From NCBI GenBank assembly GCA_012517905.1, contig JAAYUE010000069.1, positions 124,001 to 188,000 of the forward strand: 64,000 bases of DNA, given 5' to 3'. Below the pieces are notes generated by a model. The model saw nothing but the letters and a program-made list of their open reading frames with translations. It ran no database searches and was not told the origin of the DNA. Position 1 is the first letter of the stretch. Each line of letters starts with the position of its first letter. Made by a program: the position numbers and the translations under genes. Shown here in pieces: positions 27,975 to 51,988 of this stretch. The stretch comes from Clostridiales bacterium. Lineage in GTDB: Bacteria; Bacillota; Clostridia; Christensenellales; CAG-138.

Positions 27975-27988
27975 AACAACATAACAAT

Positions 27989-28074
27989 ATATGGCAAAGT
28001 CCGTGAAAGCGGAGGACGCAAAGCTAGAGGGCCTAAAGGCGCGATAACCGCCTATGGCAGCCAGTTGCAATGGA
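27989..28074 (+). ncRNA. cyclic di-GMP-I (GEMM-I) riboswitch aptamer
   Basis: Contains the conserved GGACGCAAAGC (28014-28024), a CCGT-GAAA-GCGG hairpin with the GNRA tetraloop, GGGCCTAAAGGC, and the 3' GCCAGTTGC. P1 can form between ATGGCAA (27991-27997) and TTGCAAT (28065-28071). These match the c-di-GMP-I consensus. It lies in the 5' leader of a secreted protein gene. Confidence 0.92.
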
Positions 28075-29059: not shown

Positions 29060-29397
29060 AGCGCGAAGCGAACAGGATCGCTTTGACGCCAAGGCCGAGT
29101 AAAAATGCCCATCGGACAGGGCTGGCCGCCGCCGCGCGTGACGAGAAGCGTCACATTATTGATTGAGTTTGAAGACTCAAATTTTATAAGTTGGTTACTT
29201 CATAACCAGTGCCCGAACGGCACGCCACTTGTGAAACGGTCAATAAGAGTAGCGACAGCATCCTTGCTCTACAACGCTCTGATGAAACGGTCAAGGCCAT
29301 GGTTCTGCCCAATCGCGTTTTTTCGATGAGACGCGCCGGAAAACGGAACACAACCAGCGACAAACAGGTGGTATCGGGATATACCGCCTGTTTTTAT
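29060..29397 (+). ncRNA. structured non-coding leader or independent RNA ahead of the polyamine operon
   Basis: About 335 nt from the expected start to a strong terminator, without a credible gene. Hairpins visible: AGCGA/TCGCT near the 5' end, GTGAC/GTCAC (29137-29153), TTGAGT/ACTCAA (29163-29180), TGGTTA/TAACCA (29192-29208), GTGCC/GGCAC (29209-29223). TGAAACGGTCAA occurs twice (29232-29243, 29283-29294). The first 40 nt weakly recall a degenerate c-di-GMP-I aptamer (GACGCCAAGGCC) but do not fit it. It could be a regulatory leader of speA or a separate small RNA. Confidence 0.5.
29363..29395 (+). terminator. terminator just upstream of speA
   Basis: AACAGGTGGTAT / ATACCGCCTGTT stem (one G-T pair) with 6-nt loop and a TTTTT run, 43 nt before the speA ATG. 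It either ends the upstream RNA or acts as an attenuator for the polyamine operon. Confidence 0.8.
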
Positions 29398-29437
29398 GTT
29401 TAAAAGCGGCGCGGGCGGACGATGGGAAGGAGCGGGG

Positions 29438-30895
29438 ATGAATCTCAACGAGCAAAAAAAAGCGCCGATCTACGAGGCGCTCAATCGCTTTCGAAAGCAG
29501 CGGGTGGTCCCATTCGACGTGCCCGGGCATAAGCGCGGGCGGGGCAATCCCGAGCTCGTCGAGCTGCTCGGCGAAAAATGCGTCGGCATCGACGTGAACT
29601 CGATGAAACCGCTCGACAACCTCTGCCATCCCGTGTCGGTGATCAAGGCGGCGGAGGAGCTCGCGGCGGATGCGTTTGGCGCGGCGCACGCGTTTCTGAT
29701 GGTCGGCGGCACGACCTCGAGCGTGCAGAGCATGATCCTCTCCGTCTGCAAGAGCGGGGATAAGATCATCCTCCCGCGAAACGTGCATAAGAGCGCGATC
29801 AACGCGCTCGTGCTCTGCGGCGCGGTGCCGGTCTACGTCGACCCGCGCGTGGAGCCGAAGCTCGGCATCCCGCTGGGCATGGAGTTCGGGGATGTGCGCC
29901 GCGCGGTGGAGGAAAATCCGAACGCGGTGGCGGTGCTCGTCAACAAGCCGACGTATTACGGCGTCTGCTCCAACCTCGCCGCCGTCGTGCAGATTGCGCA
30001 CGAGCACGGCATGATGGCGCTGGTGGACGAGGCGCACGGCACGCATCTGTATTTCAACGACAGTCTGCCGCAAAGCGGCATGGCGGCCGGAGCGGACATG
30101 GCGGCGGTGTCCATGCATAAGTCCGGCGGGAGTCTGACGCAGAGCTCGCTCCTGCTGCTCGGACCGAATGTGAACGCGCGGCACGTGGACCAGATCATCA
30201 ACCTCACGCAGACGACGAGCGCGTCGTATCTGCTCATGAGCAGCCTTGACATCTCCAGAAGAAACCTTGCGCTGCGCGGCGAGCAGTCGTTTGAAAAGGT
30301 GGCGCAGATGGCGCAGTACGCGCGCGAAGAGATCAACGAAGTCGGCGGCTATTACGCCTATGGGCGCGAAATCGTCAACGGCGACAGCGTGTTCGACTTC
30401 GACGTGACGAAGCTCTCGGTCTATACGCGGGATATCGGCCTGGCAGGCATCGAGGTATACGACCTGCTGCGGGACGAATACGATATCCAGATCGAATTCG
30501 GCGACATCAGCAACATCCTCGCCTACATCTCCATCGGGGACCGGCTGCAGGACATCGAGCGGCTCGTCGGCGCGCTCGCGGACATCAAGCGGCTCTATTC
30601 CAAAGAGCCGAGCGAGCTGTTTCTCGCGGAATATCTCTCCCCGATCGTGGCGGCGACCCCGCAGGCGGCGTTTTATGCCGAAAAGGAGTCCTTGCCCATC
30701 CGGGACACGGTGGGCCGCATCTGCAGCGAGTTCGTGATGTGCTATCCGCCGGGGATTCCGATCCTCGCGCCGGGCGAGGTGATCACCAAAGAGATCGTGG
30801 ACTATGTGCTCTACGCGCAGGCGAAGGGCAGCAGCATGCAGGGGCCGGAAGACCCGGATATCAAGTTTCTCAACGTGCTGAAAGGAGGCGTCTGA
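29438..30895 (+). CDS. speA: arginine decarboxylase (Orn/Lys/Arg decarboxylase family, fold III)
   Basis: 485-aa PLP enzyme of the aspartate-aminotransferase-fold decarboxylases. PVPFDVPGHKRG-type N-terminus (VVPFDVPGHKRGRGNPEL), DEAHGTH, and the PLP lysine in SMHKSGGSLTQSS. It lacks the N-terminal wing domain of the long inducible enterobacterial enzymes and matches the Firmicutes SpeA length. Arginine is the likely substrate because aguA and aguB, which convert agmatine to putrescine, are in the same operon. The start at 29438 has AAGGAG upstream. First gene of the polyamine operon. Confidence 0.88.
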   Translation: MNLNEQKKAPIYEALNRFRKQRVVPFDVPGHKRGRGNPELVELLGEKCVGIDVNSMKPLDNLCHPVSVIKAAEELAADAFGAAHAFLMVGGTTSSVQSMILSVCKSGDKIILPRNVHKSAINALVLCGAVPVYVDPRVEPKLGIPLGMEFGDVRRAVEENPNAVAVLVNKPTYYGVCSNLAAVVQIAHEHGMMALVDEAHGTHLYFNDSLPQSGMAAGADMAAVSMHKSGGSLTQSSLLLLGPNVNARHVDQIINLTQTTSASYLLMSSLDISRRNLALRGEQSFEKVAQMAQYAREEINEVGGYYAYGREIVNGDSVFDFDVTKLSVYTRDIGLAGIEVYDLLRDEYDIQIEFGDISNILAYISIGDRLQDIERLVGALADIKRLYSKEPSELFLAEYLSPIVAATPQAAFYAEKESLPIRDTVGRICSEFVMCYPPGIPILAPGEVITKEIVDYVLYAQAKGSSMQGPEDPDIKFLNVLKGGV

Positions 30896-30898
30896 CGC

Positions 30899-30970
30899 AT
30901 GGAGCTTTGGGTTAACGACATGCAAACAAGAACTGTGCGACCGCCTTTTTCAGAAAAAAGGGGGTGCTGA
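30899..30970 (+). CDS. 23-codon mini-ORF resembling the start of speE
   Basis: ATG at 30899, 3 nt after the speA stop, with AAAGGAGG 10 nt upstream; it encodes MELWVNDMQTRTVRPPFSEK plus three residues and stops at 30968-30970, 4 nt before the speE ATG and inside the speE ribosome site (AAGGGGGTG). Its first 42 nt match the first 42 nt of speE at 32 positions (MELWVNDMQT versus MEFWFNDMHT). Either a remnant of a duplicated 5' end or a leader peptide that couples speE translation. Confidence 0.5.
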   Translation: MELWVNDMQTRTVRPPFSEKRGC

Positions 30971-30974
30971 ATCA

Positions 30975-31832
30975 ATGGAGTTTTGGTTTAACGACATGCA
31001 CACCCAGAATGTGCAGCTCTCCATCCGCGTGGATAAACAGCTCTTCAGCGGAGAGAGCGACTATCAGCGCATCGACGTGTTCGACTCTCCGGAGTTCGGC
31101 CGCTTTCTCGCCTCGGACGGCAGCGTGATCTTCTCGGAAAAGGACGAATTCACCTACGACGAGATGATCGTGCACGTGCCCATGGCGGTGCATCCGAACG
31201 TCAAGCGCGTGCTCGTCATCGGCGGCGGGGACGGCGGCGTGGCGCGCGAGCTGACGCACTATGAGGAGATCGAGGCCATCGACGTGGTCGAGCAGGACAA
31301 GCTCTTTGTGGACGTCTGCCACAAATATTTTCCCGCCAACGCCTGCGGCCTCGACGACCCGCGCGTGAAGATCTACTATCAGGACGGGCTGCGCTTTCTG
31401 CGATCCCGCCAGGACGACTACGACCTGATCATCAACGACGCGACCGACCCGCTCGGGCACACGGCGGGGCTCTTTACCAAGGAGTTTTACGGCAGCTGCT
31501 TCAAGGCGCTGCACGACGACGGGATCATGGTGTATCAGCACGGCAGCCCGTTTTTTGACGAGGACGAGGACCCCTGCCGCGCCATGCACAAGAAGGCGTA
31601 CCGGAGTTTTCCGATCAGCCGCGTCTATCAGGCGCATATTCCGACCTGTCCCGCCGGCTACTGGCTTTTCGGGTTCGCGTCCAAGAAGTATCACCCGCTG
31701 GAGCATTTCGACAAGAAGCGCTGGGAAGAGCGGGGCATCAAGACCTGGTATTACACGGCAAACCTGCACGTCGGCGCGTTTATGTTGCCGCGGTATGTGG
31801 AAGATTTACTGGAGGAGGAAGAAAATTCATGA
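30975..31832 (+). CDS. speE: polyamine aminopropyltransferase (spermidine synthase)
   Basis: 285-aa aminopropyltransferase: VLVIGGGDGGVARELTHYEE is the decarboxylated-SAM binding glycine-rich loop, DVVEQDKLF and INDATDPLG (with the catalytic Asp) follow, and GLFTKEFY is typical. It transfers an aminopropyl group to putrescine to make spermidine. It needs decarboxylated SAM, but no speD is seen here. AAGGGGGTG is the ribosome site; the gene overlaps the next by ATGA. Confidence 0.92.
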   Translation: MEFWFNDMHTQNVQLSIRVDKQLFSGESDYQRIDVFDSPEFGRFLASDGSVIFSEKDEFTYDEMIVHVPMAVHPNVKRVLVIGGGDGGVARELTHYEEIEAIDVVEQDKLFVDVCHKYFPANACGLDDPRVKIYYQDGLRFLRSRQDDYDLIINDATDPLGHTAGLFTKEFYGSCFKALHDDGIMVYQHGSPFFDEDEDPCRAMHKKAYRSFPISRVYQAHIPTCPAGYWLFGFASKKYHPLEHFDKKRWEERGIKTWYYTANLHVGAFMLPRYVEDLLEEEENS

Positions 31833-33091
31833 ACCGAAAACTGCTTGTCATCGGCTGCGGGGGCGTCGCCTCCGTCGCGATTCAGAAATGCTGCCAAAAC
31901 AGCGAAATGTTTCCGGAGCTCGTGCTGGCCAGCCGCACGGTGGAAAAGTGCGACGCGCTGGTTGATTCGCTCAGTGGAAAGACGGACACCGTGCTCTCGA
32001 CCGCGCAGGTGAACGCGGACAACGTCAAGGAAGTCGTCGCGCTCATCCGCCGCGTGCAGCCGTACGCGGTGCTCAACGTCGCCCTGCCGTATCAGGACCT
32101 GACCATCATGGAGGCCTGCCTCAACTGCGGCGTGCACTACATCGACACCGCAAACTACGAGCCGGAGAACACGGAGGACCCCGCCTGGCGCGCCGTCTAC
32201 GACAAGCGCGTCGAAGAAGAGGGCTTTTCCGCGCTGTTCGACTACAGCTGGCAGTGGGCGTATCAAAAGAAGTTCGAGGACGCGGGCTTAACCGCGCTGC
32301 TCGGAACGGGGTTCGACCCCGGCGTGACCAGCGTGTTCGTTTCGTATGCAAAAAAACACTATTTCGACCGCATCGACACCGTGGACATCCTCGACTGCAA
32401 TGGCGGCGACCACGGCTATCCGTTTGCCACGAACTTTAATCCCGAAATCAACCTGCGCGAAGTCTCCGCGCCGGGCAGCTACTGGGAAAACGGCAAGTGG
32501 GTCGAAATCCCCGCTATGAGCGTCAAGCGCGAATACGACTTTCCCGAGGTCGGCAAAAAGGACATGTATTTGCTGCACCACGAGGAGATCGAGGCGCTCG
32601 GCAAGCACTACCCCGAGATCAAGCGGATTCGCTTTTTCATGACGTTTGGACAGAGCTACTTAACGCACATGAAGTGCCTCGAAAACGTCGGCATGCTCTC
32701 GACCACGCCGATCGAGTTTCAGGGGCGGCAAATCGTGCCGATTCAGTTTCTCAAGGCGCTGCTGCCGGACCCCGCGTCGCTGGGCCCGCGCACCAAGGGC
32801 AAGACGAACATCGGCTGCGTGATCAGCGGTGTCAAGGACGGCAAGGAGAAGACCATCTTCATCTACAACGTCTGCGATCACGAGGCGTGCTATCGCGAGC
32901 TGGGCAGCCAGGCCATCAGCTATACCACGGGCGTGCCCGCCATGATCGGCGCCGCGCTGGTGCTCGACGGCAGCTGGCGCAAACCCGGCGTATTTACAAC
33001 GGACGAGTTCGATCCCGACCCGTATATGGACATGCTCAACAAGTGGGGGCTGCCCTGGGTGGTGGAAGAGCACCCCGAAACGGTGGAATAG
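31829..33091 (+). CDS. carboxynorspermidine/carboxyspermidine dehydrogenase (saccharopine-dehydrogenase family)
   Basis: 420-aa NAD(P)-dependent enzyme: VIGCGGVASVAIQKCCQN at the N-terminus, a saccharopine dehydrogenase fold, and GTGFDPGVTSVFVSYA typical of the CANSDH/CASDH group. It reductively condenses aspartate semialdehyde with putrescine (or diaminopropane) to carboxyspermidine (or carboxynorspermidine). Partner of NspC immediately downstream; overlaps speE by 4 bp. Confidence 0.88.
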   Translation: MNRKLLVIGCGGVASVAIQKCCQNSEMFPELVLASRTVEKCDALVDSLSGKTDTVLSTAQVNADNVKEVVALIRRVQPYAVLNVALPYQDLTIMEACLNCGVHYIDTANYEPENTEDPAWRAVYDKRVEEEGFSALFDYSWQWAYQKKFEDAGLTALLGTGFDPGVTSVFVSYAKKHYFDRIDTVDILDCNGGDHGYPFATNFNPEINLREVSAPGSYWENGKWVEIPAMSVKREYDFPEVGKKDMYLLHHEEIEALGKHYPEIKRIRFFMTFGQSYLTHMKCLENVGMLSTTPIEFQGRQIVPIQFLKALLPDPASLGPRTKGKTNIGCVISGVKDGKEKTIFIYNVCDHEACYRELGSQAISYTTGVPAMIGAALVLDGSWRKPGVFTTDEFDPDPYMDMLNKWGLPWVVEEHPETVE

Positions 33092-33096
33092 AACCG

Positions 33097-34224
33097 ATGC
33101 GCAGGGAAGAACTGCCGACGCCGTGCTTCATTGTAAGCGAGGCGGCGCTGCGGCACAATCTGGAGATTCTCGCGGGTGTGGAGAGGCGCACGGGCGCAAA
33201 GATTCTGCTTGCACAGAAGGCGTTTTCGATGTTTTCCGTCTATCCGCTTGTGCGAAAATACCTCTCTGGCGCAAGCGCGAGCGGCTTATACGAAGCGCGG
33301 CTTTCGCACGAGGAGATGGGCAAGGAGAACCACGTGTTTTCGCCCGCGTATACGGACGAAGAACTGCGCGAGCTCGTGACCATCTGCGACCACGTGATCT
33401 TCAACTCCTTTTCCCAGCTGGAGGCGCATCGCGCCGTCTGGCAGAAAAGCGGCGCGAGCGTCGGCATCCGCGTCAACCCCGCCTGCAGCACGCAGCAGGG
33501 ACATGCCGTCTATGACCCCTGCGCGCCGTTTTCGCGCCTCGGCGTCACGCGGGCAAACTTCCGCCCCGACCTGCTGGACGGCGTGGAGGGGCTGCATTTT
33601 CACACGCTCTGCGAGCAGAACAGCGACGATCTCGTGAAGACGTTTGAAGCGTTCGAGCGCGACTTTGGCGAGTATCTGCCGAATATGAAGTGGCTCAACC
33701 TCGGCGGCGGGCACCATATCACCAAGCCCGACTACGATAGTTACGCGCTGGATGAGATTCTCTACTACATCCGCGCGAAGTATGATCTGCAGGTCTATCT
33801 CGAGCCCGGCGAGGCGGTCGCGCTCGACGCGGGCTGGCTGGATACCGCCGTGCTGGACGTCGTGGACAACGGCATGCCGATATTGATTCTGGACGCGTCC
33901 GCTGCCTGCCACATGCCGGACGTGCTGGAGATGCCCTACCGTCCGCCGCTTTTCGACGCGGGCGAGCCGGGCGAAAAGACGGTCACCTGCCGTCTCGCCG
34001 CGCGCACGTGCCTCGCAGGGGACGTGATCGGGGACTACAGCTTCGAGCGGATGCCGCAGGTTGGCGACCGGCTGTCGTTTGGCGACATGGCGATTTACAG
34101 CATGGTCAAGACGAACACCTTCAACGGCATGCCGCTGCCGGCCATCGCGCTGATGCGCGAGGACGGGGACTGCGAACTCGTGAAAACGTTCGGGTACGAA
34201 GATTTTAAAGGGAGATTATCCTGA
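33097..34224 (+). CDS. nspC: carboxynorspermidine/carboxyspermidine decarboxylase
   Basis: 375-aa alanine-racemase-fold PLP decarboxylase. PTPCFIVSEAALRHNLEIL start; PLP lysine in LLAQKAFSMFS; LHFHTLCEQ; GGGHHITKPDYD (PLP phosphate); and EPGEAV. It decarboxylates carboxyspermidine or carboxynorspermidine. The ATG lies 5 nt after the dehydrogenase stop, with only a weak ribosome site, so translation probably depends on coupling. Confidence 0.92.
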   Translation: MRREELPTPCFIVSEAALRHNLEILAGVERRTGAKILLAQKAFSMFSVYPLVRKYLSGASASGLYEARLSHEEMGKENHVFSPAYTDEELRELVTICDHVIFNSFSQLEAHRAVWQKSGASVGIRVNPACSTQQGHAVYDPCAPFSRLGVTRANFRPDLLDGVEGLHFHTLCEQNSDDLVKTFEAFERDFGEYLPNMKWLNLGGGHHITKPDYDSYALDEILYYIRAKYDLQVYLEPGEAVALDAGWLDTAVLDVVDNGMPILILDASAACHMPDVLEMPYRPPLFDAGEPGEKTVTCRLAARTCLAGDVIGDYSFERMPQVGDRLSFGDMAIYSMVKTNTFNGMPLPAIALMREDGDCELVKTFGYEDFKGRLS

Positions 34225-34226
34225 CG

Positions 34227-35336
34227 ATGCTCCACACGCTGCCCGCAACAGACGGATATCATATGCCAGCCGAGTTTTCGCCGCAGGACGGCGTGCTGCT
34301 GGTCTGGCCCGCGCGGACCGGAAGCTGGGGCAAGGACCCGGCCGCGGCGCAGGACGCGTTTTGCGCGGTCATGCGCGCGGCAAGCGAACACGAGCGGGTG
34401 TTTCTGCTTGCGGATGCGGCGCATCTAGAAGAAGCGCGCCAAAGGGCGGGCGAAATTGCAACCGTGCTGGAGATTGCGACCGACGACGCCTGGGCGCGGG
34501 ATATCGGGCCGACGTTTGTGACAAACGGAACAGATGTGCGCGGCGTGAGCTGGCGCTTCAACGCCTGGGGCGGCGCAGTCGACGGTCTCTATGCAAACTG
34601 GGAAAAGGACGACGCGGCGGCGGAGGCGTTCTGCCGCGCGGTCGGCGCGGACTGTTACGACGCGGGGGAGTTTGTTCTGGAAGGCGGATCGATCTGTTCG
34701 GACGGCGAGGGGACGCTGCTCGTCACCGAAGCCTGCCTGCTCAGCGCGGGGAGGAATCCGAACCTGAATAAGCCGCAGATCGAGCAAAAGCTGAAGGACT
34801 GGCTCGGCGTGCGGAAGTTGCTCTGGCTGCCGCGCGGCATCTATCGCGACGAGACGAACGAGCACGTGGACAACGTCTGCGCATTTCTCGCCCCGGGCGA
34901 GGTTGTGCTTGCGTGGACGGACGACGAGACCGATCCGCAGTATCCGCTCAGCCGAGCGGATTACGACTATCTTTCGCGCGAGACGGACGCGCGCGGGCGA
35001 AAGGTCATCATCCACAAACTGCCGGTTCCCGACCATCCCGTGCGCGTGACCGAGCAGGACATGGAAAACTTTGCGTTCGAACCGGGGGAGGACGCACGGG
35101 AAGTTGGCGAGCGGCTCGCCGCAAGCTATGTGAATTTTTATTTCGCCAACGATGCAATTTTGCTGCCGCAGTTCGGCGGCGAAAACGCCGCCTCGGACGC
35201 GCGCGCGGTCGAAATAATGCGCTGCCTCTGCCCGCGGCGGCAGATCGTGCCGATCGATTCGCGGGCCATTTTGCTCGGCGGCGGCAACATCCATTGCATC
35301 ACCCAACAGATACCAAAAGGGCTGTTTCAGGAATAA
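34227..35336 (+). CDS. aguA: agmatine deiminase
   Basis: 369-aa guanidino-group hydrolase that converts agmatine to N-carbamoylputrescine and ammonia. Features: MPAEFSPQDGVLLVWPAR, DAWARDIGPTF, EGGSI, YRDETNEHVDNVC, and the catalytic Cys357 in LLGGGNIHCITQQ. Full family length. It begins 2 nt after nspC. Confidence 0.95.
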   Translation: MLHTLPATDGYHMPAEFSPQDGVLLVWPARTGSWGKDPAAAQDAFCAVMRAASEHERVFLLADAAHLEEARQRAGEIATVLEIATDDAWARDIGPTFVTNGTDVRGVSWRFNAWGGAVDGLYANWEKDDAAAEAFCRAVGADCYDAGEFVLEGGSICSDGEGTLLVTEACLLSAGRNPNLNKPQIEQKLKDWLGVRKLLWLPRGIYRDETNEHVDNVCAFLAPGEVVLAWTDDETDPQYPLSRADYDYLSRETDARGRKVIIHKLPVPDHPVRVTEQDMENFAFEPGEDAREVGERLAASYVNFYFANDAILLPQFGGENAASDARAVEIMRCLCPRRQIVPIDSRAILLGGGNIHCITQQIPKGLFQE

Positions 35337-35378
35337 AACGAGATGAATCACGCCACGGACACCGAAAGGAGCGCCGAC

Positions 35379-36254
35379 ATGAACGAAACCGTCGTTGCCG
35401 CCGTGCAGATGCGCATGACGGCCGACCCCGCCGAAAACCTTGCCCGCGCGGAAGCGTTCGTGCGCGCGGCGGCAGAGCAGGGCGCGAACATCGTGCTTCT
35501 GCCGGAGCTGTTCGAGCGCCCGTATTTCTGCCAGCAGCGCAGGTATGACTATCTGGACTTCGCGCTGCCGGTTTCGGAAAACCCGGCGGTGTCGCGCATG
35601 CGCTCGCTGGCAAACGAGCTCGGCGTCGTCATTCCGGTGAGCTTCTATGAGCGGGACGGCAACCGGCTGTATAACGCCTGCGCGATGGTCGACGCGAGCG
35701 GGGAACTGCTCGGCGTCTACCGAAAGACGCATATTCCGGACGACCATTTCTATCAGGAAAAGTTCTATTTTTCGCCCGGAGACACGGGTTTTCGCGTGTT
35801 TGAAACGAAGTTTGGCCGCGTCGGCGTCGGCATTTGCTGGGACCAGTGGTTTCCCGAGGCCGCGCGCGCCATGGCGCTGCTCGGCGCGGATCTGCTGCTC
35901 TATCCGACCGCCATCGGCTCGGAGCCCATTCTCGACTGCGACAGCATGCCGCATTGGCGGCGCGCGATGCAGGGGCACGCGGCGGCGAACATCGTCCCCG
36001 TCGCCGCGGCAAACCGCGTTGGTATGGAGCGCGTCGAACCCTGCGCGGAAAACGGCATGCAGCAAAGCGCGCTGACCTTCTACGGCTCCTCGTTTCTCAC
36101 CGATGAGACGGGGGAGGTGTTGCAGCAGGCGGACCGAACGAGCGAAACCGTGATCAGCGCGCGCTACGACTTTGCGCGCATCCGCAGAAACCGGCTCGAC
36201 TGGGGGCTTTTCCGCGATCGCAGGCCGGAGTGTTACGAGCTCCTGACGCGGTAG
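35379..36254 (+). CDS. aguB: N-carbamoylputrescine amidase
   Basis: 291-aa nitrilase-superfamily amidase with the Glu-Lys-Cys triad visible: LLPELFERPYFCQ (Glu), YRKTHIPDD (Lys) and VGICWDQWFPE (Cys). It hydrolyses N-carbamoylputrescine to putrescine, CO2 and ammonia. The start at 35379 has AAAGGAG; the track adds 12 residues. Last gene of the polyamine operon. No T-rich terminator stands directly after it. Confidence 0.95.
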   Translation: MNETVVAAVQMRMTADPAENLARAEAFVRAAAEQGANIVLLPELFERPYFCQQRRYDYLDFALPVSENPAVSRMRSLANELGVVIPVSFYERDGNRLYNACAMVDASGELLGVYRKTHIPDDHFYQEKFYFSPGDTGFRVFETKFGRVGVGICWDQWFPEAARAMALLGADLLLYPTAIGSEPILDCDSMPHWRRAMQGHAAANIVPVAAANRVGMERVEPCAENGMQQSALTFYGSSFLTDETGEVLQQADRTSETVISARYDFARIRRNRLDWGLFRDRRPECYELLTR

Positions 36255-36342: not shown

Positions 36343-36370
36343 TTGCAAAATCAGGTTTAGATGATATAAT
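36343..36370 (+). promoter_or_regulatory. promoter of gltBD
   Basis: TTGCAA (36343-36348), 16-bp spacer, TATAAT (36365-36370), 287 nt before the gltB ATG, so the mRNA has a long leader. Confidence 0.7.
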
Positions 36371-36378
36371 ATATGAAA

Positions 36379-36488
36379 CTTTGCAAGATGAGCCGTTCCA
36401 TCTTGCAGTTTTTAACTGGAACAACGGTGTTCCGAGGCCCGAGCCCTTTCCGAATGGGAGCGGCGCGGACGTTCGGATCGTTTTTTTT
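36379..36488 (+). ncRNA. candidate regulatory leader RNA of gltB with kissing hairpins and terminator
   Basis: Hairpin 1: TGCAAGATG / CATCTTGCA (36382-36407), loop AGCCGTTC, followed by GTTTTT. Hairpin 2: GGAAC / GTTCC (36418-36433), loop AACGGT. The loops are complementary over six positions (GCCGTT with AACGGT, one G-U), so they can kiss. Then TCCGAA (36449-36454) / TTCGGA (36472-36477) leads to eight T (36481-36488), a possible terminator. TCCGA next to hairpin 2 (36431-36435) can also pair TCGGA. I know no named riboswitch that fits. The rest of the leader (36489-36656) shows no further clear element. Confidence 0.5.
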
Positions 36489-36656: not shown

Positions 36657-39600
36657 ATGAAACAGCAAGAACTGCAGCAAAGATGCTCGACAACATTTCG
36701 ACAGCAAGAGACCGAGAATCAGGACGCTCCGGTCGCTCCGAATCGCGGGCGGACGGCATGTTCCATGGCGGGCGCGACCCTCTGGCGCCCCGAGTTTGAG
36801 CATGACGCCTGCGGAACAGGTTTTATCGCGCATACCCACGGCGTTCGCTCGCATGCGATCATCGAGGATGCGCTCGAGATACTCAAGCGGCTCGCACACC
36901 GCGGCGGAACGGGCTCCGACCCCGACACGGGCGACGGCGCGGGCGTGCTATTACAGATACCCGATCGTTTTTTCCGCAAAGCGACGGAATTTGACCTCCC
37001 CGAAGAGGGGCAGTATGCGGTCTGCATGTTTTTTCTTCCGCTCGACGAAGCGGATTGTCTCACGGCGCAAGCCTCTATCGAAGCCATTGCAAAAGAAGAA
37101 GCGTTCACACTGATCGGCTGGCGAAAGGTTCCGACCAATCTGCACGCCTGCGGCGCCGGCGCCTGGGCCAGCGTGCCGAGCGTGCGGCAGCTGTTTATCA
37201 CATGGAAAGAAACGGACCTGCCTTCCGACGTTCGCCTGTTTGTGCTGAGAAAGCGCATCGAGCGGGCGATGAAGGAGCAGGGCTGTGAAGCATATGTTCC
37301 CAGTCTCTCTGCAAAAACCGTGGTGTATAAAGGCATGATGCAGGCATGGCAGGTGTCCGATTTTTATCCGGACCTGCTGGATGAGGATTTCCTGTCCGGC
37401 ATCGCGCTGGTGCATTCGCGCTACTCCACCAATACGTTTCCAAACTGGGAGCGCGCGCAGCCGTTTCGCATGGTTGCGCACAACGGAGAAATCAACACGC
37501 TAAAGGGCTGCGAACATGCGGTGCTCGCGGCGTCTTCGGCGATGGACGGCGGGCGGCTTTCCAGACGCTTTGCCGATATTCTGCCGATTCTGGACACGGA
37601 CGGTAGCGACTCGACAAAATTCGACAATCTGCTGGAGTTTCTCGTGGTTGCGGGCAGGTCCCTTCCGCAGGCGCTGTTTATGATGATGCCCGGCCCGTGG
37701 TCGAAGGACCCGACCATGGACGAAAACCAGCGGGAGTTTTTCCGCTACGCAGCCTGCCTGATGACGCCGTGGGACGGTCCGGCCGCCATGTGTTTCACCG
37801 ACGGGAGGCAGGTCGGCGCCGTTCTGGACAGAAACGGTCTTCGCCCCGCACGCTGGGTGCTAACAAAAGACGACATACTGGTGCTCGCCTCCGAAAGCGG
37901 CGTGGTGGACATCCCGCCGTCCGAGGTTGTGCGCCGCGGTCGGCTCGGCCCGAACCAGATGCTGCTGCTGGACACGGAAACCCGCGCGCTGCTGGAGGAC
38001 CAGCAGATCAAGGACCGGTATCTCGACGGCCCCTGGAAGCAATGGCTTCCGGAGCAGGTCATCGAGCTGGAGGAGCAGCCCTATCGGCGCCTGAGCGAGC
38101 CTTCCGCCAATCCGACGGAGCTGCAGCGCCTCTTTGGCTGGACCTATGAAGACCGCATGGTGACGGTGCTGCCGATTGCGCAGAGCGGGCTCGATCCCGT
38201 CGGCGCGATGGGGTACGACGCGCCGATCGCGGTCCTTTCGGACAAACCGCAGCCGCTCTTTCATTATTTTAAGCAGCTGTTCGCGCAGGTGACCAACCCG
38301 CCGATCGACGCGATTCAGGAAGAGTGCGTCGTCGGCATGGACGTATTTCTCGGCCCGAACGGCGACCCGACGCTGGATCAGGCCGACAACTGCCGCAAGA
38401 TCCACCTTGCGTCGCCGATTCTCGACACGCCGAACCTCGAGCGGCTGCTCTCCGGCATTCCCGGGTTCAGCGCGGCGGAACTGCACATGGTGTTCGACCC
38501 CAAGCAGGGGCTCGAGGCGGGGCTGGATGCGTTTTTCACCGCGGCGGAGAAGGCGATTCGCGGCGGCAACTCGATTCTGGTGCTCTCGGACAGAACGGCC
38601 GGCCCCGAGCTTGCGCCGATTCCGTCCCTGCTCGCCACGGCGGGCGTGCATCACCACTTGATCCGCAAAGGGCTGCGCGGCGGGTGTTCTTTGATTGTGG
38701 ACAGCTACGAACCGCGCGAAATCCACCACGTCGCCTGCCTGATCGGCTACGGCGCAAAGGCCGTGCATCTGCGCGGGGTCTACGAGGCGGTGGAAGCGCT
38801 CTCGGACGAAGGATATCTCGAGGGCATGCCGCTCGAAGACGCGATGCGCAACATCTTCCACGGATACGATCACGGCATTCTCAAGGTGATGTCCAAGATG
38901 GGTATCTCCTGCGTGGACGGCTATCACAACGCGCAGATTTTCGAGGCGCTGGGGCTGTCGCAGGAGCTGGTGGACCGCTTTTTCAACGGCACGGTCACCC
39001 GCGTCGGCGGCATGAATCTGGACGACCTTGAGCGCGAAATCCTGAAACGGCACAAAGAAGCGCTGGAAGCGCCGATCAACGAGCTGCCATCCGGCGGGCG
39101 GTTCCAGTATAAGCGGGACGGCGAGAAGCACCTCTATAACCCCGAGACGATCCACCTGCTGCAGACGGCGGTGCGCAATGGCGACTATGAGCTGTTTAAG
39201 GAGTTTGTCCGGCGGATCGAGGGCGAAGCGCCCGTAACGCTGAGAAACCTGCTCGGGTTTCAGAACTGCCACCCGATTCCGCTGGAGGAGGTCGAGCCGG
39301 TCGAAAAGATCGTCCGCCGCTTCAAGACGGGCGCCATGTCTTACGGCTCCATCAGCAAGGAGGCGCACGAGTGCATCGCCATGGCGATGAACCAGCTCGG
39401 CGGCAAGAGCAACTCCGGCGAGGGCGGCGAGGCCTCTGAGCGGTATTTCACCGACAAAAACTCCGCGATCAAGCAGATCGCCTCCGGCCGCTTCGGCGTG
39501 ACGGGGCCGTATCTCGCCTCCGCAAAGGAAATACAGATCAAGATGGCGCAGGGTGCAAAGCCCGGCGAGGGCGGCCAACTGCCCGCGGGCAAGGTGTATC

Positions 39601-41219
39601 CCAGCATTGCCCGCACGCGTCACTCCACGCCCGGCGTGGGGCTGATTTCACCGCCCCCGCACCACGATATCTATTCGATCGAAGATCTCGCGCAGTTGAT
39701 CTACGACCTGAAGAACGCAAACCCCGACGCGCGCATCAACGTCAAGCTCGTCTCTGAGGCGGGCGTCGGCACCATCGCGGCGGGCGTCGCCAAGGGCGGC
39801 GCGGACGTGATCCTGATCTCCGGCTACGACGGCGGAACGGGCGCCAGCCCGCGCACGAGCATTCAGCATGCGGGTCTGCCCTGGGAGCTCGGCCTTGCCG
39901 AGACGCACCAGACGCTGATTGCAAACGGCCTGCGCGGCCGCGTGCGGGTCGAGACGGACGGCAAGCTCATGACGGGGCGGGACATCGCCATCGCCGCGCT
40001 GCTCGGCGCGGAGGAGTTTGGCTTTGCCACCCTGCCGCTGGTGTCCATCGGCTGCGTGGTGATGCGCGTCTGCAATCTCGACACATGCCCCGTCGGCGTG
40101 GCGACGCAGAATCCCGCGCTGCGCGCGCGGTTTACCGGCAAGCCGGAGTATGTGATCAACCTCATGCGCTTTCTTGCGCAGAATCTGCGCGAACAGATGG
40201 CGGAGCTTGGGTTCCACACGCTGGACATGATGGTCGGCATGGCGGGACACCTGACGCAGATAAAGCAGTCCCCGAAGACGGACGGCATGGACCTCTCCGG
40301 CCTGATTCCCGGGGATCAGCCGCTGCCTTGGCGCGATCTGAAACCCCATGGCGACGAACACAACCGCCTGTTTCACGACATGCTCCGCTCGCTGGTCGAG
40401 CAGGGCGACGCCGTGGTCAAGCGGCCGATCTGCAACACGGAACGGGCGGTCGCCACGCGGATTTCGGCGTTCATCAGCCGCGAATACGGCCGTCTGCCGG
40501 ACGGGCGCATCCGGTTCCAATTCAACGGCACGGCCGGGCAGAGCTTCGGCGCGTTTGCGACCGCGGGCATCGAGCTTTTGATCGAGGGCGATACGAACGA
40601 CTATCTCGGCAAGGGCCTGTGCGGCGCGCGCATCATCGTCCGGGCGCCGAAAGACGCCGGATGGTCCGCAAAGGACAACCTGCTTACGGGCAACGTGGCG
40701 CTCTTCGGCGCGACGGATGGAGAACTGTATCTGGCCGGGCGCGCGGGCGAACGCTTCTGCGTGCGCAACAGCGGCGCGCTCGCCGTCTGCGAGGGCGTCG
40801 GCGACCACGGCTGCGAATACATGACGGGCGGCACCGCCGTCATTCTCGGGCCCGTTGGCCGTAACTTTGCCAGCGGCATGTCCGGCGGCATCGCGTATGT
40901 GCTGGACGACGGCAACCTCAGGCGCATGGTGAACACGAAGATGGTTGCGCTCTACGATCTCGACGCGCTCGACCTTGTGCTGCTCTACCGCCATCTGACG
41001 AACCATGTGAACTACACCGGCTCGAAGATCGCCGCGAAGATACTGGACAAATGGCCGTCCGAACACGCGCGCTTTGTCAAAGTGCTGCCGCACGACTACC
41101 GTGAGATGCTCGAAGCCATGGACGCTGCCGAGCGCGAAGGGCTGGAGGGCGACGAGATGCTCGAGCGGGCGTTTCAGCTCAAGACGGGCAAGACCGGACC
41201 GTCCGGCATCAAGCTCTAA
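36657..41219 (+). CDS. gltB: glutamate synthase, large subunit
   Basis: 1520-aa ferredoxin/NADPH-type GOGAT large subunit. It hydrolyses glutamine at an N-terminal class II amidotransferase domain, channels ammonia, and makes glutamate from 2-oxoglutarate. The catalytic cysteine is Cys52 in EHDACGTGFIAH, so a ~51-residue propeptide should be removed. Other landmarks: VHSRYSTNTFPNWERAQPF, HNGEINT, GAMSYGSISKEAHE (FMN/2-oxoglutarate), CVVMRVCNLDTCPVG (3Fe-4S), and the C-terminal GxGxG domain. The start at 36657 has AGGAG; an ATG at 36765 is possible but has no site. Operon with gltD 21 nt downstream. Confidence 0.95.
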   Translation: MKQQELQQRCSTTFRQQETENQDAPVAPNRGRTACSMAGATLWRPEFEHDACGTGFIAHTHGVRSHAIIEDALEILKRLAHRGGTGSDPDTGDGAGVLLQIPDRFFRKATEFDLPEEGQYAVCMFFLPLDEADCLTAQASIEAIAKEEAFTLIGWRKVPTNLHACGAGAWASVPSVRQLFITWKETDLPSDVRLFVLRKRIERAMKEQGCEAYVPSLSAKTVVYKGMMQAWQVSDFYPDLLDEDFLSGIALVHSRYSTNTFPNWERAQPFRMVAHNGEINTLKGCEHAVLAASSAMDGGRLSRRFADILPILDTDGSDSTKFDNLLEFLVVAGRSLPQALFMMMPGPWSKDPTMDENQREFFRYAACLMTPWDGPAAMCFTDGRQVGAVLDRNGLRPARWVLTKDDILVLASESGVVDIPPSEVVRRGRLGPNQMLLLDTETRALLEDQQIKDRYLDGPWKQWLPEQVIELEEQPYRRLSEPSANPTELQRLFGWTYEDRMVTVLPIAQSGLDPVGAMGYDAPIAVLSDKPQPLFHYFKQLFAQVTNPPIDAIQEECVVGMDVFLGPNGDPTLDQADNCRKIHLASPILDTPNLERLLSGIPGFSAAELHMVFDPKQGLEAGLDAFFTAAEKAIRGGNSILVLSDRTAGPELAPIPSLLATAGVHHHLIRKGLRGGCSLIVDSYEPREIHHVACLIGYGAKAVHLRGVYEAVEALSDEGYLEGMPLEDAMRNIFHGYDHGILKVMSKMGISCVDGYHNAQIFEALGLSQELVDRFFNGTVTRVGGMNLDDLEREILKRHKEALEAPINELPSGGRFQYKRDGEKHLYNPETIHLLQTAVRNGDYELFKEFVRRIEGEAPVTLRNLLGFQNCHPIPLEEVEPVEKIVRRFKTGAMSYGSISKEAHECIAMAMNQLGGKSNSGEGGEASERYFTDKNSAIKQIASGRFGVTGPYLASAKEIQIKMAQGAKPGEGGQLPAGKVYPSIARTRHSTPGVGLISPPPHHDIYSIEDLAQLIYDLKNANPDARINVKLVSEAGVGTIAAGVAKGGADVILISGYDGGTGASPRTSIQHAGLPWELGLAETHQTLIANGLRGRVRVETDGKLMTGRDIAIAALLGAEEFGFATLPLVSIGCVVMRVCNLDTCPVGVATQNPALRARFTGKPEYVINLMRFLAQNLREQMAELGFHTLDMMVGMAGHLTQIKQSPKTDGMDLSGLIPGDQPLPWRDLKPHGDEHNRLFHDMLRSLVEQGDAVVKRPICNTERAVATRISAFISREYGRLPDGRIRFQFNGTAGQSFGAFATAGIELLIEGDTNDYLGKGLCGARIIVRAPKDAGWSAKDNLLTGNVALFGATDGELYLAGRAGERFCVRNSGALAVCEGVGDHGCEYMTGGTAVILGPVGRNFASGMSGGIAYVLDDGNLRRMVNTKMVALYDLDALDLVLLYRHLTNHVNYTGSKIAAKILDKWPSEHARFVKVLPHDYREMLEAMDAAEREGLEGDEMLERAFQLKTGKTGPSGIKL

Positions 41220-41240: not shown

Positions 41241-42671
41241 ATGGGAAAACTGACCGGTTTTTTGGAATATGACAGGCGGACGGCCGAAGAGCTGCCCTGC
41301 GATGCGCGCGTTCAGAACTGGGACGCGTTTCATCCCGCGCAGAGCGAGGACGAGATTTGCGAACAGGCCGCGCGCTGCATGAACTGCGGCGTGCCGTTTT
41401 GCCACGCGGGCGTGACCTGGCGCGGCGTGGGGTCCGGCTGCAGCCTCGGAAACCTCATCCCCGAATGGAACCATCTGGTCTTCAAGGGGCATTTTGAGGA
41501 AGCGTTCCGCAGGTTGGAGCAGACGAACCCGCTGCACGAATGCACCTCCCGCGTTTGCCCCGCCCTCTGCGAGGGCGCCTGCACGAACGGGCTGAACGGC
41601 GAACCCGTCGCCATCCGCGAGATCGAGCGCTTTTTGAGCGATATGGCCTGGGAAAAAGGCTGGGTGATCCCGCGTCCGCCGAAAGCCTACCGGGACAAGA
41701 GTGTTGCGGTAATCGGCTCCGGCCCATCCGGACTGACCGCGGCGCACATCCTGAACCAACGCGGATTCCATGTGACGGTGTTCGAGAAATCCGAAGAGCC
41801 CGGCGGGCTTCTGATGTTCGGCATCCCGAATATGAAGCTGCCCAAGGAACTGGTCCGAAGGCGCGTCGATATCTTTCGGCAGGAAGGCATCGAATTCGTC
41901 TGCGGGAAGGACGTCGGCAAAGACCTGCCGGTGTCCGAACTGGACCGTTTTGACGCGGTGCTGCTCTGCGGCGGCGCCGGTCAGCCGCGTGATCTGACCG
42001 TATCCGGCCGCAATCTGCCAGGGGTACGCCTGGCCGTGCCGTTTCTGGCTGAGGCGACGCGCCGCGTGCTTGCGGGGGATACGGAAGAAAAGCCGCTGCT
42101 CGGACACAAGGTGGTGGTCATCGGGGGCGGCGACACCGGCAACGACTGCGTTGCGACCTCCATTCGCATGGGCGCAAACGCCGTTGTCCAGCTCGAGATC
42201 ATGCCACCCGCGCCGGAGATGCGTGCGGCGGGCAACCCCTGGCCGCGCTGGCCGCTGGTGCTCAAGACCGACTATGGTCAGCAGGAAGCCATCTGGCTGT
42301 TTGGAAACGATCCGCGGACGTTTGAAACCACGGCAGTGTCCATCCTAGGCGACGAGACGAGCGGCGTGACCGGCATTGAAACCGCAGAGGTCGAGTGGGT
42401 AACCACGGAGCGCGGGCGCATTCCCAAACCGATCGAGTCCACGCGCAGCAGACAGGAAGCGACGGACGTGCTGATCGCCATGGGATTCGTCGGTGCGGAG
42501 ACGTATCTGCCGGAGGCGCTGCAGCTCACGCTGGACCGCAGCGCCTATGCGACCTCGCGAAAGGGCGTCTTTACCGCCGGCGATATGCGAACGGGCCAGA
42601 GCCTCGTCGTGCGCGCGTCGGCGGACGCAAAGCGCGCCGCCGAGGAAGTGGAGCGCTATCTCGGCGAGTAA
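41241..42671 (+). CDS. gltD: glutamate synthase, small (NADPH) subunit
   Basis: 476-aa flavoprotein that feeds electrons from NADPH to GltB. The N-terminal Fe-S cysteines are in CMNCGVPFCH and CTSRVCPALCEGAC. FAD motif VIGSGPSGLTAAHILNQRG, NADPH motif VVIGGGDTGNDC, and the C-terminal GVFTAGDMRTGQSLVV. AAGGAG upstream. Complete length. Confidence 0.95.
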   Translation: MGKLTGFLEYDRRTAEELPCDARVQNWDAFHPAQSEDEICEQAARCMNCGVPFCHAGVTWRGVGSGCSLGNLIPEWNHLVFKGHFEEAFRRLEQTNPLHECTSRVCPALCEGACTNGLNGEPVAIREIERFLSDMAWEKGWVIPRPPKAYRDKSVAVIGSGPSGLTAAHILNQRGFHVTVFEKSEEPGGLLMFGIPNMKLPKELVRRRVDIFRQEGIEFVCGKDVGKDLPVSELDRFDAVLLCGGAGQPRDLTVSGRNLPGVRLAVPFLAEATRRVLAGDTEEKPLLGHKVVVIGGGDTGNDCVATSIRMGANAVVQLEIMPPAPEMRAAGNPWPRWPLVLKTDYGQQEAIWLFGNDPRTFETTAVSILGDETSGVTGIETAEVEWVTTERGRIPKPIESTRSRQEATDVLIAMGFVGAETYLPEALQLTLDRSAYATSRKGVFTAGDMRTGQSLVVRASADAKRAAEEVERYLGE

Positions 42672-48105: not shown

Positions 48106-50022
48106 ATGAACGGAATCGACCATCTCTGGATCGTCATCTGCGCATGCTTTGTATTCTTCATGCAGGCGGGGTTCATCTGTTATGAAGTCGGCTTTGTGCG
48201 CCCGAAAAACGTCGTCAGCGTCGCAATTGAAAACATCATTGCGTTTGTCATCGCCACGCTGGCGTACTGTCTCGTCGGGTTTGCGTTTATGTTCGGCGAG
48301 ACGAAGGGCGGGCTGATCGGAACCGGCAACTGGTTTTTGCAGAATTTAACGAGCGACTACGACAACATCTTCGTGCTCTATGAGCTCATGTTTGCCGGAA
48401 CCGCCGTCACCATCTTTGCGGGCAGCATGTCCGAGCGGACGAAGCTCAAGGCGCTTCTGATCGCGGCGGTGGTGACCGGCGCGGTCATCTACCCGATCTT
48501 CGGGCACTGGGTCTGGGGCGGAAACGACATCCGGCAAGGCACTCTGTTGAGCAACCTTGGATTCATGGATTACGCCGGCGCAACCGTGGTGCACTCCACC
48601 GCGGGATGGGTCGCGCTGGCGGGCACCATCGTCCTTGGGGCGCGGAAAGGGCGCTGGGATGAAACCGGAAAACCAAGACGGCTGGGACGCTCCAATATCC
48701 CGTTTGCCGCGCTCGGCACGTTCATCCTCTGGTTCAGCTGGTTTGGCTTCAACGGCGGAAACCTGCTGAAGTTTGACGACAGGGTCGGCCTGATCCTGCT
48801 CAACACCAACATCGCCGCATCCGCCAGCGTCGTCGGCGCGGTGCTGGTCACCCGGCTGACCGCGCGGGACCAGAGCTTTATGGAGGCGGTGTTCAACGGC
48901 GCGCTGGGCGGGCTGGTTGCCATCACCGCGAGTTCGGATATCCTCACGCTTTGGCAGGCGGCGCTCGTCGGCCTGATCGCGGGCGGCGTCGTGGTGCTGG
49001 GCAGTCTGCTGCTGCTCCGACTCAAAATCGACGACGCGGTGAACGCGATTCCGATCCACGGAATCGGCGGCGCGTGCGGAACGATCCTCTGCGCGGTGTT
49101 TGCCGCGCCGGACAAGCTCGTGCTGCCGACACGGCTGCAGCAGATTCTGGTGCAGCTGCTCGGCGTCGGCGCCAACTTCGTCTGGGCCTTCGGGCTCGGG
49201 CTTGTCATGTTTCTCGTGATCGACAGGACGATCGGGCTGCGCGTTTCGGACGAGGAGGAGGAAAAGGGCCTGAACGTCGTGGAGTTTTCCGATGTGGCGT
49301 CCTGGCTGGAACACCTGAAAGAGGAGCACTACGCGCAGCTGACGCAGGACCTCTACAGCACGATACAAAAGCAAAACGCCGATCTGCAGCGGCAGTCCGA
49401 TCTGCTCGTCGCGACGCAGGAGCGCGAGCGCAAGAAGATTGCGCGGGACCTGCACGACGGCGTGGGGCAGTCGCTCGTCGCGCTGAAAATCAACATTGGC
49501 CTGTTTCAGCGGATGTCCGAGGACGCGGCGGTGAAAGCACACGCGGGCAAGACCATCCGCATGGTGGACGAAACCATCGCCGAGATTCGGAATGTGATCG
49601 GCAATCTGGAGCCCGCGGCGCTGAAAAAAGACGGTCTTGCCGCGAGCGTGAAAAGCCTCTGCGAAAAACTGGAAAAGATCGGCCCGATTCAGTTTCACTG
49701 CGCCATCGCCGGCCGGATGCCGCACTGGAGTGAAACGGAGGAACTGAACATCTTCCGCATCGTGCAGGAGTGTCTGACCAATATCATCAAACATTCCGGC
49801 GCGACGGTGGCGGACGTCAATATGTTTCCGCTGAGCGACCGCCTCTTTCTGATCAGCGTGATCGACAACGGCAGCGGCTTTCCCATCCAGTCGGTCGATA
49901 ACGGCCTCGGGCTGTCTTCCATTCGGGAGCGCAGCGCCATGCTCAACGCGAAAATCGTGATCGACAGCGAGGAAGGACGCGGCACAAAAGTGATACTCGA
50001 GGTTCCCTATGAAAAAGATTAA
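48106..50022 (+). CDS. ammonium transporter-histidine kinase fusion (Amt sensor kinase)
   Basis: 638-aa fusion. Residues about 1-400 are a complete Amt domain with the residues used for transport in AmtB: Phe-gate regions ELMFAGT and WFGFNGG, Trp in HWVWGGND, Asp and first His of the pair in MDYAGATVVHSTAG, second His in PIHGIGGACGT. After RVSDEEEEKGL comes a coiled linker (about 405-440), then HisKA_3 with His450 in ARDLHDGVGQS, and a HATPase with RIVQECLTNIIKHSG, DNGSGF and GLGLSSIRERSAML. Such fusions (as Amt5 of anammox bacteria) sense ammonium. It overlaps the response regulator gene by 14 bp. The ribosome site is weak. Confidence 0.93.
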   Translation: MNGIDHLWIVICACFVFFMQAGFICYEVGFVRPKNVVSVAIENIIAFVIATLAYCLVGFAFMFGETKGGLIGTGNWFLQNLTSDYDNIFVLYELMFAGTAVTIFAGSMSERTKLKALLIAAVVTGAVIYPIFGHWVWGGNDIRQGTLLSNLGFMDYAGATVVHSTAGWVALAGTIVLGARKGRWDETGKPRRLGRSNIPFAALGTFILWFSWFGFNGGNLLKFDDRVGLILLNTNIAASASVVGAVLVTRLTARDQSFMEAVFNGALGGLVAITASSDILTLWQAALVGLIAGGVVVLGSLLLLRLKIDDAVNAIPIHGIGGACGTILCAVFAAPDKLVLPTRLQQILVQLLGVGANFVWAFGLGLVMFLVIDRTIGLRVSDEEEEKGLNVVEFSDVASWLEHLKEEHYAQLTQDLYSTIQKQNADLQRQSDLLVATQERERKKIARDLHDGVGQSLVALKINIGLFQRMSEDAAVKAHAGKTIRMVDETIAEIRNVIGNLEPAALKKDGLAASVKSLCEKLEKIGPIQFHCAIAGRMPHWSETEELNIFRIVQECLTNIIKHSGATVADVNMFPLSDRLFLISVIDNGSGFPIQSVDNGLGLSSIRERSAMLNAKIVIDSEEGRGTKVILEVPYEKD

Positions 50023-50659
50023 GGTGTTTCTGGCGGACGACCACAAAATTCTGCGCGAGTCGCTGGAGATATTGCTCTCGCAGAAAGAGAATATCGAGAT
50101 GGTCGGCGCAGCGGGCGACGGGCAGGAGGCCTACCGGAAGATCTGCGAGCTCAAGCCGGATATCGCCGTGCTGGATATCACCATGCCCGGCCTGAACGGG
50201 CTGGACCTGGCGGAAAAACTCAAAGCCGAACTGCCGGATGTGAAGGTCGTGATCCTCACGATGCACAAATCGGGCGAGTTTGTCAGCAAAGCGCTCGGCG
50301 CGGGCGTGCGCGGCTATGTGCTCAAGGACAACGCGCTGGAGGAGCTGATCGAGTGCATCGAGTTGGTCTCCGAGCGCAAGATCTATCTTTCGCAGGACAT
50401 CACGGATATCGTTGTGAGCGGATTTATCAGCCACAGCCGGGAAAATCCGGAGACGATCGAAAGCGCCGTCTCTTCGCGGGAAAAGGAGATCCTCCAGCTG
50501 CTGGCGGAGGGAAAATCCAACAAGGAGATATCGGATCTATTGAACCTGAGCGCGAAAACAGTCGAGACGCACCGCGCGAACATCATGCGAAAACTCGGGT
50601 TTCACAACATCACCGACCTTGTGCTCTACGCCGTGCGCAACCACATCATAGAACCGTAG
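50009..50659 (+). CDS. NarL/LuxR-family response regulator
   Basis: 216-aa regulator: receiver domain with phospho-acceptor Asp56 in AVLDITMPGLNG and Lys in YVLKDNALEEL, then a LuxR-type helix-turn-helix (SREKEILQLLAEGKSNKEISDLLNLSAKTVETHRANIMRKL). HisKA_3 kinases pair with exactly this class, and it overlaps the kinase gene, so the two form one signalling pair. The amtB gene immediately downstream, preceded by a perfect inverted repeat, is the most likely target. Confidence 0.93.
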   Translation: MKKIKVFLADDHKILRESLEILLSQKENIEMVGAAGDGQEAYRKICELKPDIAVLDITMPGLNGLDLAEKLKAELPDVKVVILTMHKSGEFVSKALGAGVRGYVLKDNALEELIECIELVSERKIYLSQDITDIVVSGFISHSRENPETIESAVSSREKEILQLLAEGKSNKEISDLLNLSAKTVETHRANIMRKLGFHNITDLVLYAVRNHIIEP

Positions 50660-50671
50660 GTACAGCATAAA

Positions 50672-50719
50672 TACGGTAACTTTACAGGAAATACACCGCA
50701 AAAATCAGTTTTTACCGTA
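50672..50719. promoter_or_regulatory. long-spaced perfect inverted repeat upstream of amtB
   Basis: TACGGTAA (50672-50679) and TTACCGTA (50712-50719) are perfect inverted copies, 40 bp centre to centre, close to four helical turns. Placed between the response regulator gene and amtB; a candidate binding site for that regulator. Confidence 0.55.
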
Positions 50720-50785
50720 TATGGCGCTCTGTTGAAATTCGATAAAATGCCTGTATCACAATATGGGGTGGAGGCGTTTTTTACG

Positions 50786-51988
50786 ATGATCAATTCAGGG
50801 GATACTGCGTTTGTGCTGATTTGCGCGGCGATGGTGTGCTTTATGACACCGGGGCTCGCGTTTTTTTACGGCGGTCTGGTCCGCAAAAAGAACATGCTGA
50901 CGATCATGATGCAGAGCTTTGTCGCGATGGGCGTCGTGGCGCTCATCTGGTTTGTCTGCGGGTTCAGTCTCGCGTTTGGAACGGACGTCGGCGGCGTGAT
51001 CGGCAATTTTCGGTATGCGTTTCTCAACGGCGTCGGCATCGAGCCGAACGCCGCCTATGCGGGGACCATTCCGTTTGCGGCGTTCTTTCTGTTTCAGTTG
51101 ATGTTTGCGGTGATTACGCCGGCGCTGATCACGGGCGCGTTTGCGGACCGCATGAATTTCAAAAGCTATCTGATTTTTCTGACGCTCTGGTCGCTGCTGG
51201 TCTATGTGCCCTGCGCGCACTGGATCTGGGGCGGCGGGTTCTTGCAACAGATGGGGGTTGCGGACTTTGCCGGCGGCATCGCGATTCATACGAGCGCGGG
51301 CGTGGCGGCGCTGGTTTCGGTCCTCGTGATCGGAAAGCGCAACATCCCGTCGAGCGAAACGACGAAGCCCGCCAGCATCAAGTTCTTCGCGCTCGGCACG
51401 GCGATCCTCTGGTTCGGCTGGTTTGGATTTAACGGCGGAAGCGCGCTTGCGGCGGACGGCAAGGCGGCCATCGCGTTTGTCAACACCGCGCTGGCCGGCG
51501 GAGTCACGATGCTGACCTGGCTTGCGATCAGCTGGAGCCATACGAAGCATCCGAGCCTGACGGAGTCGCTGACCGGCGCGGTTGCGGGGTTTGTCGCCAT
51601 CACGCCCGCGGCGGGATATGTCTCGCCCGCGGCGGCGGTGCTCATCGGCCTCGCTGCGGCGTTTGTCTGCTACGGCGCGGTGCAGCTGCGCAAAAAGAAG
51701 GGGCTGGACGACGCGCTGGACGTGGTCGGCGTGCACGGCGTCGGCGGCATTCTGGGTTCGCTGATGGTCGGCGTATTCGCACAAAAGGCCATCGGCGGCG
51801 TGGACGGGCTCATCGCCGGAAATGCGCATCAGCTGCTCGTCCAGCTGATCGCGATTGCGATCGTTTCGGTCTATTCCTTTGCGCTGACGTTCCTGCTGCT
51901 CAAGGGCGTCAATCTGGTCTCGCGCGTTCGCGTTTCCGACGAGACGGAGCAAAAAGGGCTGGATACCCTCCTGCAGGAAGAGGCGTAA
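50786..51988 (+). CDS. amtB: ammonium transporter
   Basis: 400-aa Amt/Rh channel with 11 helices. It has the Phe gate (FQLMFAVITPALITGAFADRM, WFGFNGGS), Trp in HWIWGGG, DFAGGIAIHTSAGV with the first His, VGVHGVGGILGS with the second. It conducts ammonium under limitation. The track begins at a TTG 18 codons upstream; ATG 50786 fits the family and has GGTGGAGG at 11 nt. No glnK/PII gene follows, unusual for amtB; control may instead come from the Amt-kinase system upstream. Confidence 0.93.
   Translation: MINSGDTAFVLICAAMVCFMTPGLAFFYGGLVRKKNMLTIMMQSFVAMGVVALIWFVCGFSLAFGTDVGGVIGNFRYAFLNGVGIEPNAAYAGTIPFAAFFLFQLMFAVITPALITGAFADRMNFKSYLIFLTLWSLLVYVPCAHWIWGGGFLQQMGVADFAGGIAIHTSAGVAALVSVLVIGKRNIPSSETTKPASIKFFALGTAILWFGWFGFNGGSALAADGKAAIAFVNTALAGGVTMLTWLAISWSHTKHPSLTESLTGAVAGFVAITPAAGYVSPAAAVLIGLAAAFVCYGAVQLRKKKGLDDALDVVGVHGVGGILGSLMVGVFAQKAIGGVDGLIAGNAHQLLVQLIAIAIVSVYSFALTFLLLKGVNLVSRVRVSDETEQKGLDTLLQEEA

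Follow-up and report, generated by a model that had tools for sequence, protein, structure and literature searches.

The leader of the gltBD operon (glutamate synthase) very probably attenuates transcription through an ANTAR (NitR-like) switch, which operates with a single hexaloop instead of two. It is located in a window of 64,000 nucleotides, the whole stretch of Clostridiales DNA that was analysed. The hexaloop signature, a single ANTAR gene next to a glutamine synthetase (GS) gene, further leaders sharing the signature and the operon structure of close relatives together identify it as a NitR-like ANTAR antitermination leader. This assignment builds on conservation, mutual exclusivity of two folds, covariation and gene context, from which we infer protein binding, the nitrogen signal and the direction of regulation. 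Because of the single hexaloop the leader is classified as a variant that would work like an ANTAR leader, outside the dual-hexaloop class.

Organization of the gltBD leader

Two hairpins, complementary loops and a run of eight T had been noted in a preliminary description and are all present (Table 1). Hairpin 1 reads TTGCAAGATG-AGCCGTTC-CATCTTGCA; its loop comprises 8 nt, of which GCCGTT are the inner six. The -35 and -10 elements of the gltB promoter are kept in the alignment of 8 species. As the promoter places the start site near 36377, the leader begins just 5' of hairpin 1. The gltB reading frame is listed from 36612, but the alignment of homologs favours the ATG at 36657. Taken as a whole, the 181-nt region folds no better than shuffled sequences (z -0.82).

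Table 1. Features of the gltBD locus (positions in the window).
Feature	Position	Strand	Basis and remarks
Promoter TTGCAA-16-TATAAT	36343..36370	+	consensus scan; start site about 36377
Hairpin 1 / inverted repeat TTGCAAGATG-N8-CATCTTGCA	36381..36407	+	about +5 to +31; arms near-invariant, loop hypervariable
ANTAR-type hexaloop hairpin 2 GGAAC[AACGGT]GTTCC	36418..36433	+	loop A1..G4; putative antiterminator; near-invariant in 10 leaders
Intrinsic terminator	36423..36488	+	MFE folds, covariation
gltB, glutamate synthase large subunit	36657..41219	+	Pfam; start from alignment
gltD, glutamate synthase small subunit	41241..42671	+	ORF; Pfam Fer4_20, Pyr_redox_2

The hexaloop hairpin and the terminator

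The conserved element of the leader is hairpin 2, GGAAC[AAYGRC]GUUCC, which is near-invariant in 8 gltB leaders of the genus and in two leaders of a sister lineage. ANTAR targets are characterized by a hexaloop with A1 and G4 and by AC/GU closing pairs as in eutP P1 (PMC3369931). An A1/G4 hexaloop hairpin is found in 10 of 10 leaders.

Downstream of hairpin 2 the sequence of the genus leaders varies while the ability to form a terminator is kept. Hairpin 2 supplies the 5' arm of the terminator with its hexaloop and 3' strand; an inner stem, the 3' arm (to 36480) and eight T (36481-36488) follow. The suggestion that a strand at hairpin 2 can pair with the terminator arm is confirmed: pairing is possible between the 3' strand of this hairpin and the arm preceding the T-run. 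In the alignment 83.1% of the terminator cells are paired, a value reached by none of 500 shuffles, and four changes affect both sides of a pair (5 of 500 shuffles). The two sister-lineage leaders add G-C to A-U swaps, at loop position 5 and immediately beyond the stem, which leave the terminator intact.

According to the folds, the hexaloop hairpin overlaps and excludes the intrinsic terminator in all ten leaders compared. The terminator is the minimum free energy structure of every segment from hexaloop to U-run (10/10), 0.9-10.6 kcal/mol better than the fold with the hexaloop enforced. The margin is small in this genome (2.6 kcal/mol) and in G006 (0.9 kcal/mol), which counts against the proposed ANTAR switch. 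A hairpin fixed in sequence and overlapped by a structure fixed in pairing would have the look of a protein-stabilized antiterminator.

In none of the 8 gltB leaders does hairpin 2 have a second, tandem A1/G4 hexaloop nearby, and the glnA-antar and glnN leaders likewise lack a tandem pair. One tandem match, in L030, was dropped because it is situated within a minus-strand gene.

The ANTAR protein and its putative regulon

This genome (G000) encodes one ANTAR protein. Five of seven congeners also have a single copy; the two without one are fragmented assemblies (420 and 520 contigs). The gene codes for a receiver-ANTAR protein and is positioned directly downstream of a GS gene. Pfam places the ANTAR domain above the cut-off and Response_reg just below. 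In the receiver domain the phosphoacceptor Asp is replaced by Asn, so phosphorylation is unlikely as the signal. The adjacent GS would be a natural candidate for relaying a glutamine signal to the ANTAR protein. The residue equivalent to Tyr164 of EutV, counted from the conserved Met, appears to be His, as in AmiR. ANTAR proteins of the clade (L119, L120, L018, L009-L012 and L020) have receiver-like domains with Asn or Gly in place of the phosphoacceptor Asp.

The leader of the glnA-antar operon and that of the divergent glnN (type III glutamine synthetase) carry the same type of hexaloop at their 5' ends. The terminator overlaps the hexaloop in 5 of 5 GS-antar leaders and in 6 of 6 GSIII leaders. 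Six genomes contain exact GAACAANGRCGTTC matches, 11 sites in total, nine of which belong to gltB and glnA-antar leaders. The other two (G002:C4 and G000:C29) seem incidental, since the hairpin is absent from the fold of one and the other is within a reading frame.

The two closest relatives beyond the genus, whose GltB is 77-78% identical, each have a single ANTAR gene, and it belongs to a glnA-ANTAR-gltB operon preceded by the same hexaloop and terminator. A model of the gltB leader (R1), searched against 396 genomes of the order, matches strongly in this genus alone; weaker matches have E-values from 1e-5 to 0.01. Hexaloops upstream of gltB in distant bacteria are scattered and none is convincing. 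Two ammonium transporter leaders within the window, read by eye, contain nothing obvious.

By default the nascent RNA would fold the terminator, with loop and 3' strand of hairpin 2 as its 5' arm, and transcription would end ahead of gltB. Under nitrogen shortage the product of the ANTAR gene next to the GS would bind the AAYGRC hexaloop, hold hairpin 2 and block the terminator, so that gltBD is made. Further targets of this protein would be the leaders of glnN and of the operon that encodes it, glnA-antar, and the inverted repeat of hairpin 1 would serve a separate regulator as DNA operator. The chances appear about even that gltBD, glnA-antar and glnN constitute a genus-wide GS/GOGAT regulon under antitermination by a single ANTAR hexaloop per leader, without a recruitment hairpin. 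One hexaloop would then suffice co-transcriptionally, with the DNA operator at the gltB start site as a second layer.

Comparison with known ANTAR systems

ANTAR control of nitrogen genes is already known; what differs here is the single hexaloop per leader. According to a review's account, NitR of Clostridium saccharobutylicum is an ANTAR protein reported to induce GS/GOGAT genes on nitrogen limitation via antitermination (Stutz et al. 2007 as cited in PMC6316151). As far as that account goes, the likeness lies in an ANTAR protein tied to glutamine synthetase and glutamate synthase genes. For Desulfotomaculum reducens, too, predicted ANTAR targets precede glutamate synthase genes (PMC3369931). 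By description, target gene and predicted mechanism are the same, but those targets came from a two-hairpin model whereas the gltBD leader has a single hexaloop.

The motif of EutV, AmiR and NasR has been described with two hexaloops (PMC3369931). The eut leaders of Enterococcus faecalis resemble the gltBD leader in the A1/G4 hexaloop, the AC/GU closing pairs and a hairpin that overlaps and excludes the terminator. They differ in having two hexaloops instead of one, and unlike EutV the present protein has no receiver phosphoacceptor Asp. Both differences, like the apparent His in place of Tyr164, count against the ANTAR reading. The 2022 structure of EutV defined one hexaloop, bound by an ANTAR dimer, as the minimal binding motif (PMC8934654). 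The sequence features of this minimal definition are present in the gltBD leader, a candidate target of an ANTAR dimer. Antitermination by EutV in vivo still requires both hexaloops, and why this is so although the dimer binds one was left open (PMC8934654). Natural leaders with a single, terminator-overlapping hexaloop in three operons of one genus make this question testable. The preliminary description had found no match to a glutamine, purine or T-box consensus; its comparison omitted ANTAR targets, which fit.

Hairpin 1 as a probable DNA operator

The sequence of hairpin 1 makes a DNA operator the most likely reading, with TTGCARGA as the half-site for a separate regulator. Between glnA and glnN the same half-sites recur as an inverted repeat, here separated by 2 bp and located upstream of the glnN -35 element. 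A palindrome TTGCAGGA-N2-TCCTGCR is also found about 140 bp upstream of the promoter of ppdK (pyruvate phosphate dikinase) in four congeners (L055, L061, L070 and L076; near 1501 or 1320). In these four species it is an island of identity amid variable DNA and represents a putative operator, possibly for a regulator shared with glnA/glnN. The gap is 12 bp at gltB versus 2 bp at glnA/glnN and ppdK, a difference of one helical turn. In the sister lineage, G465 carries the version with a 12-bp gap at its glnA operon, and G466 has lost the clean palindrome while hexaloop and terminator are kept. The recurring half-sites, their spacing by a helical turn and this pattern in G465 and G466 favour an operator function of this DNA (about +5 to +31).

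A tentative alternative is that hairpin 1 acts as RNA, either as a non-canonical first (recruitment) hairpin of a dual-hairpin ANTAR target or as a stabilizer of the 5' end. It is part of the transcript, about 10 nt 5' of the hexaloop hairpin in 8 of 8 gltB leaders (G465: about 12 nt), a spacing within the linker of 5-12 nt reported for the E. faecalis eut leaders. Furthermore, its stem is kept despite one A-U to G-U change and, in G465, an A-U to G-C change. On the other hand, the loop, 8 nt long in the genus, is hypervariable without the A1/G4 pattern, and the glnA-antar and glnN leaders have no counterpart. The state of G466 and the helical-turn spacing also argue against an RNA element, and half-sites 2 bp apart, as in front of the glnN -35 element and well upstream of ppdK, are too close for a hairpin.

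An ammonium transporter-histidine kinase fusion (48106-50022), a NarL/LuxR-type response regulator (50009-50659) and a second ammonium transporter (50732-51988) form a locus within the window (48106-51988). For NarL-type regulators the binding sites are inverted repeats separated by 2 bp. By analogy of spacing, the regulator at 50009-50659 may be a candidate for the TTGCARGA-N2 sites.

Other explanations of the leader

Control of the terminator by a different factor (another RNA-binding protein, or constitutive attenuation), with the A1/G4 hexaloop a coincidence, is improbable. The tie between the ANTAR protein and gltBD RNA is indirect, which leaves room for such a factor, but the same hexaloop is present in three leaders including that of the ANTAR gene's own operon, and relatives have the glnA-antar-gltB operon.

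The preliminary description had read the leader as a riboswitch or attenuator with kissing loops that senses a nitrogen metabolite. In this one genome the six complementary loop positions favour this reading: 6 contiguous pairs are possible, one of them G-U. A random 8-nt loop pairs with this loop 2 at 6 or more positions in 0.55% of trials, which is unremarkable for a feature picked by eye from 64 kb. The leaders upstream of gltB in 8 species of the genus (this one and 7 congeners), all represented by metagenome-assembled genomes, were compared. The longest loop-loop run is 6 bp in this species but 2-4 bp in the seven homologs. Loops from the same leader form 3.75 bp on average versus 3.68 bp for loops swapped between species. 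Counting of loop-loop pairs over the genus leaders (62.5% paired versus 61.7% in shuffles) gives no covariation support. The hairpin 1 loops differ almost everywhere across the genus (AGCCGTTC, AAACATTC, ACCAACCT, GATCATAA, GATCATCA, CTTCATCT and GATCAAAG).

Thus the kissing interaction is refuted: in seven homologs the loops pair at the level of swapped or shuffled ones, complementarity is not kept across homologous leaders, the outcome that the preliminary description itself had named as decisive, and loop 1 is hypervariable. In the Rfam search of the leader no family is above chance and no curated aptamer model matched. Together with loop pairing at the swapped and shuffled level, this speaks against a tertiary-folded, metabolite-binding riboswitch, and the kissing-loop reading as a whole is hardly tenable. 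Its attenuator part holds, as none of the ten leaders could form hairpin 2 and the terminator at the same time and the terminator covaries. Likewise, the link to nitrogen control is retained through the gene context, whereas a nitrogen metabolite as riboswitch ligand is not. The ANTAR reading thus corrects a plausible but wrong riboswitch call.

Elsewhere in the window, Rfam identifies a c-di-GMP-I riboswitch at 27983-28072 (69 bits). Just upstream of the leader, an apparent run of polyamine genes extends from 29396 to 36254. Its translations are presumably arginine decarboxylase-like, spermidine synthase-like, carboxynorspermidine-type, agmatine deiminase-like and N-carbamoylputrescine amidase-like enzymes.
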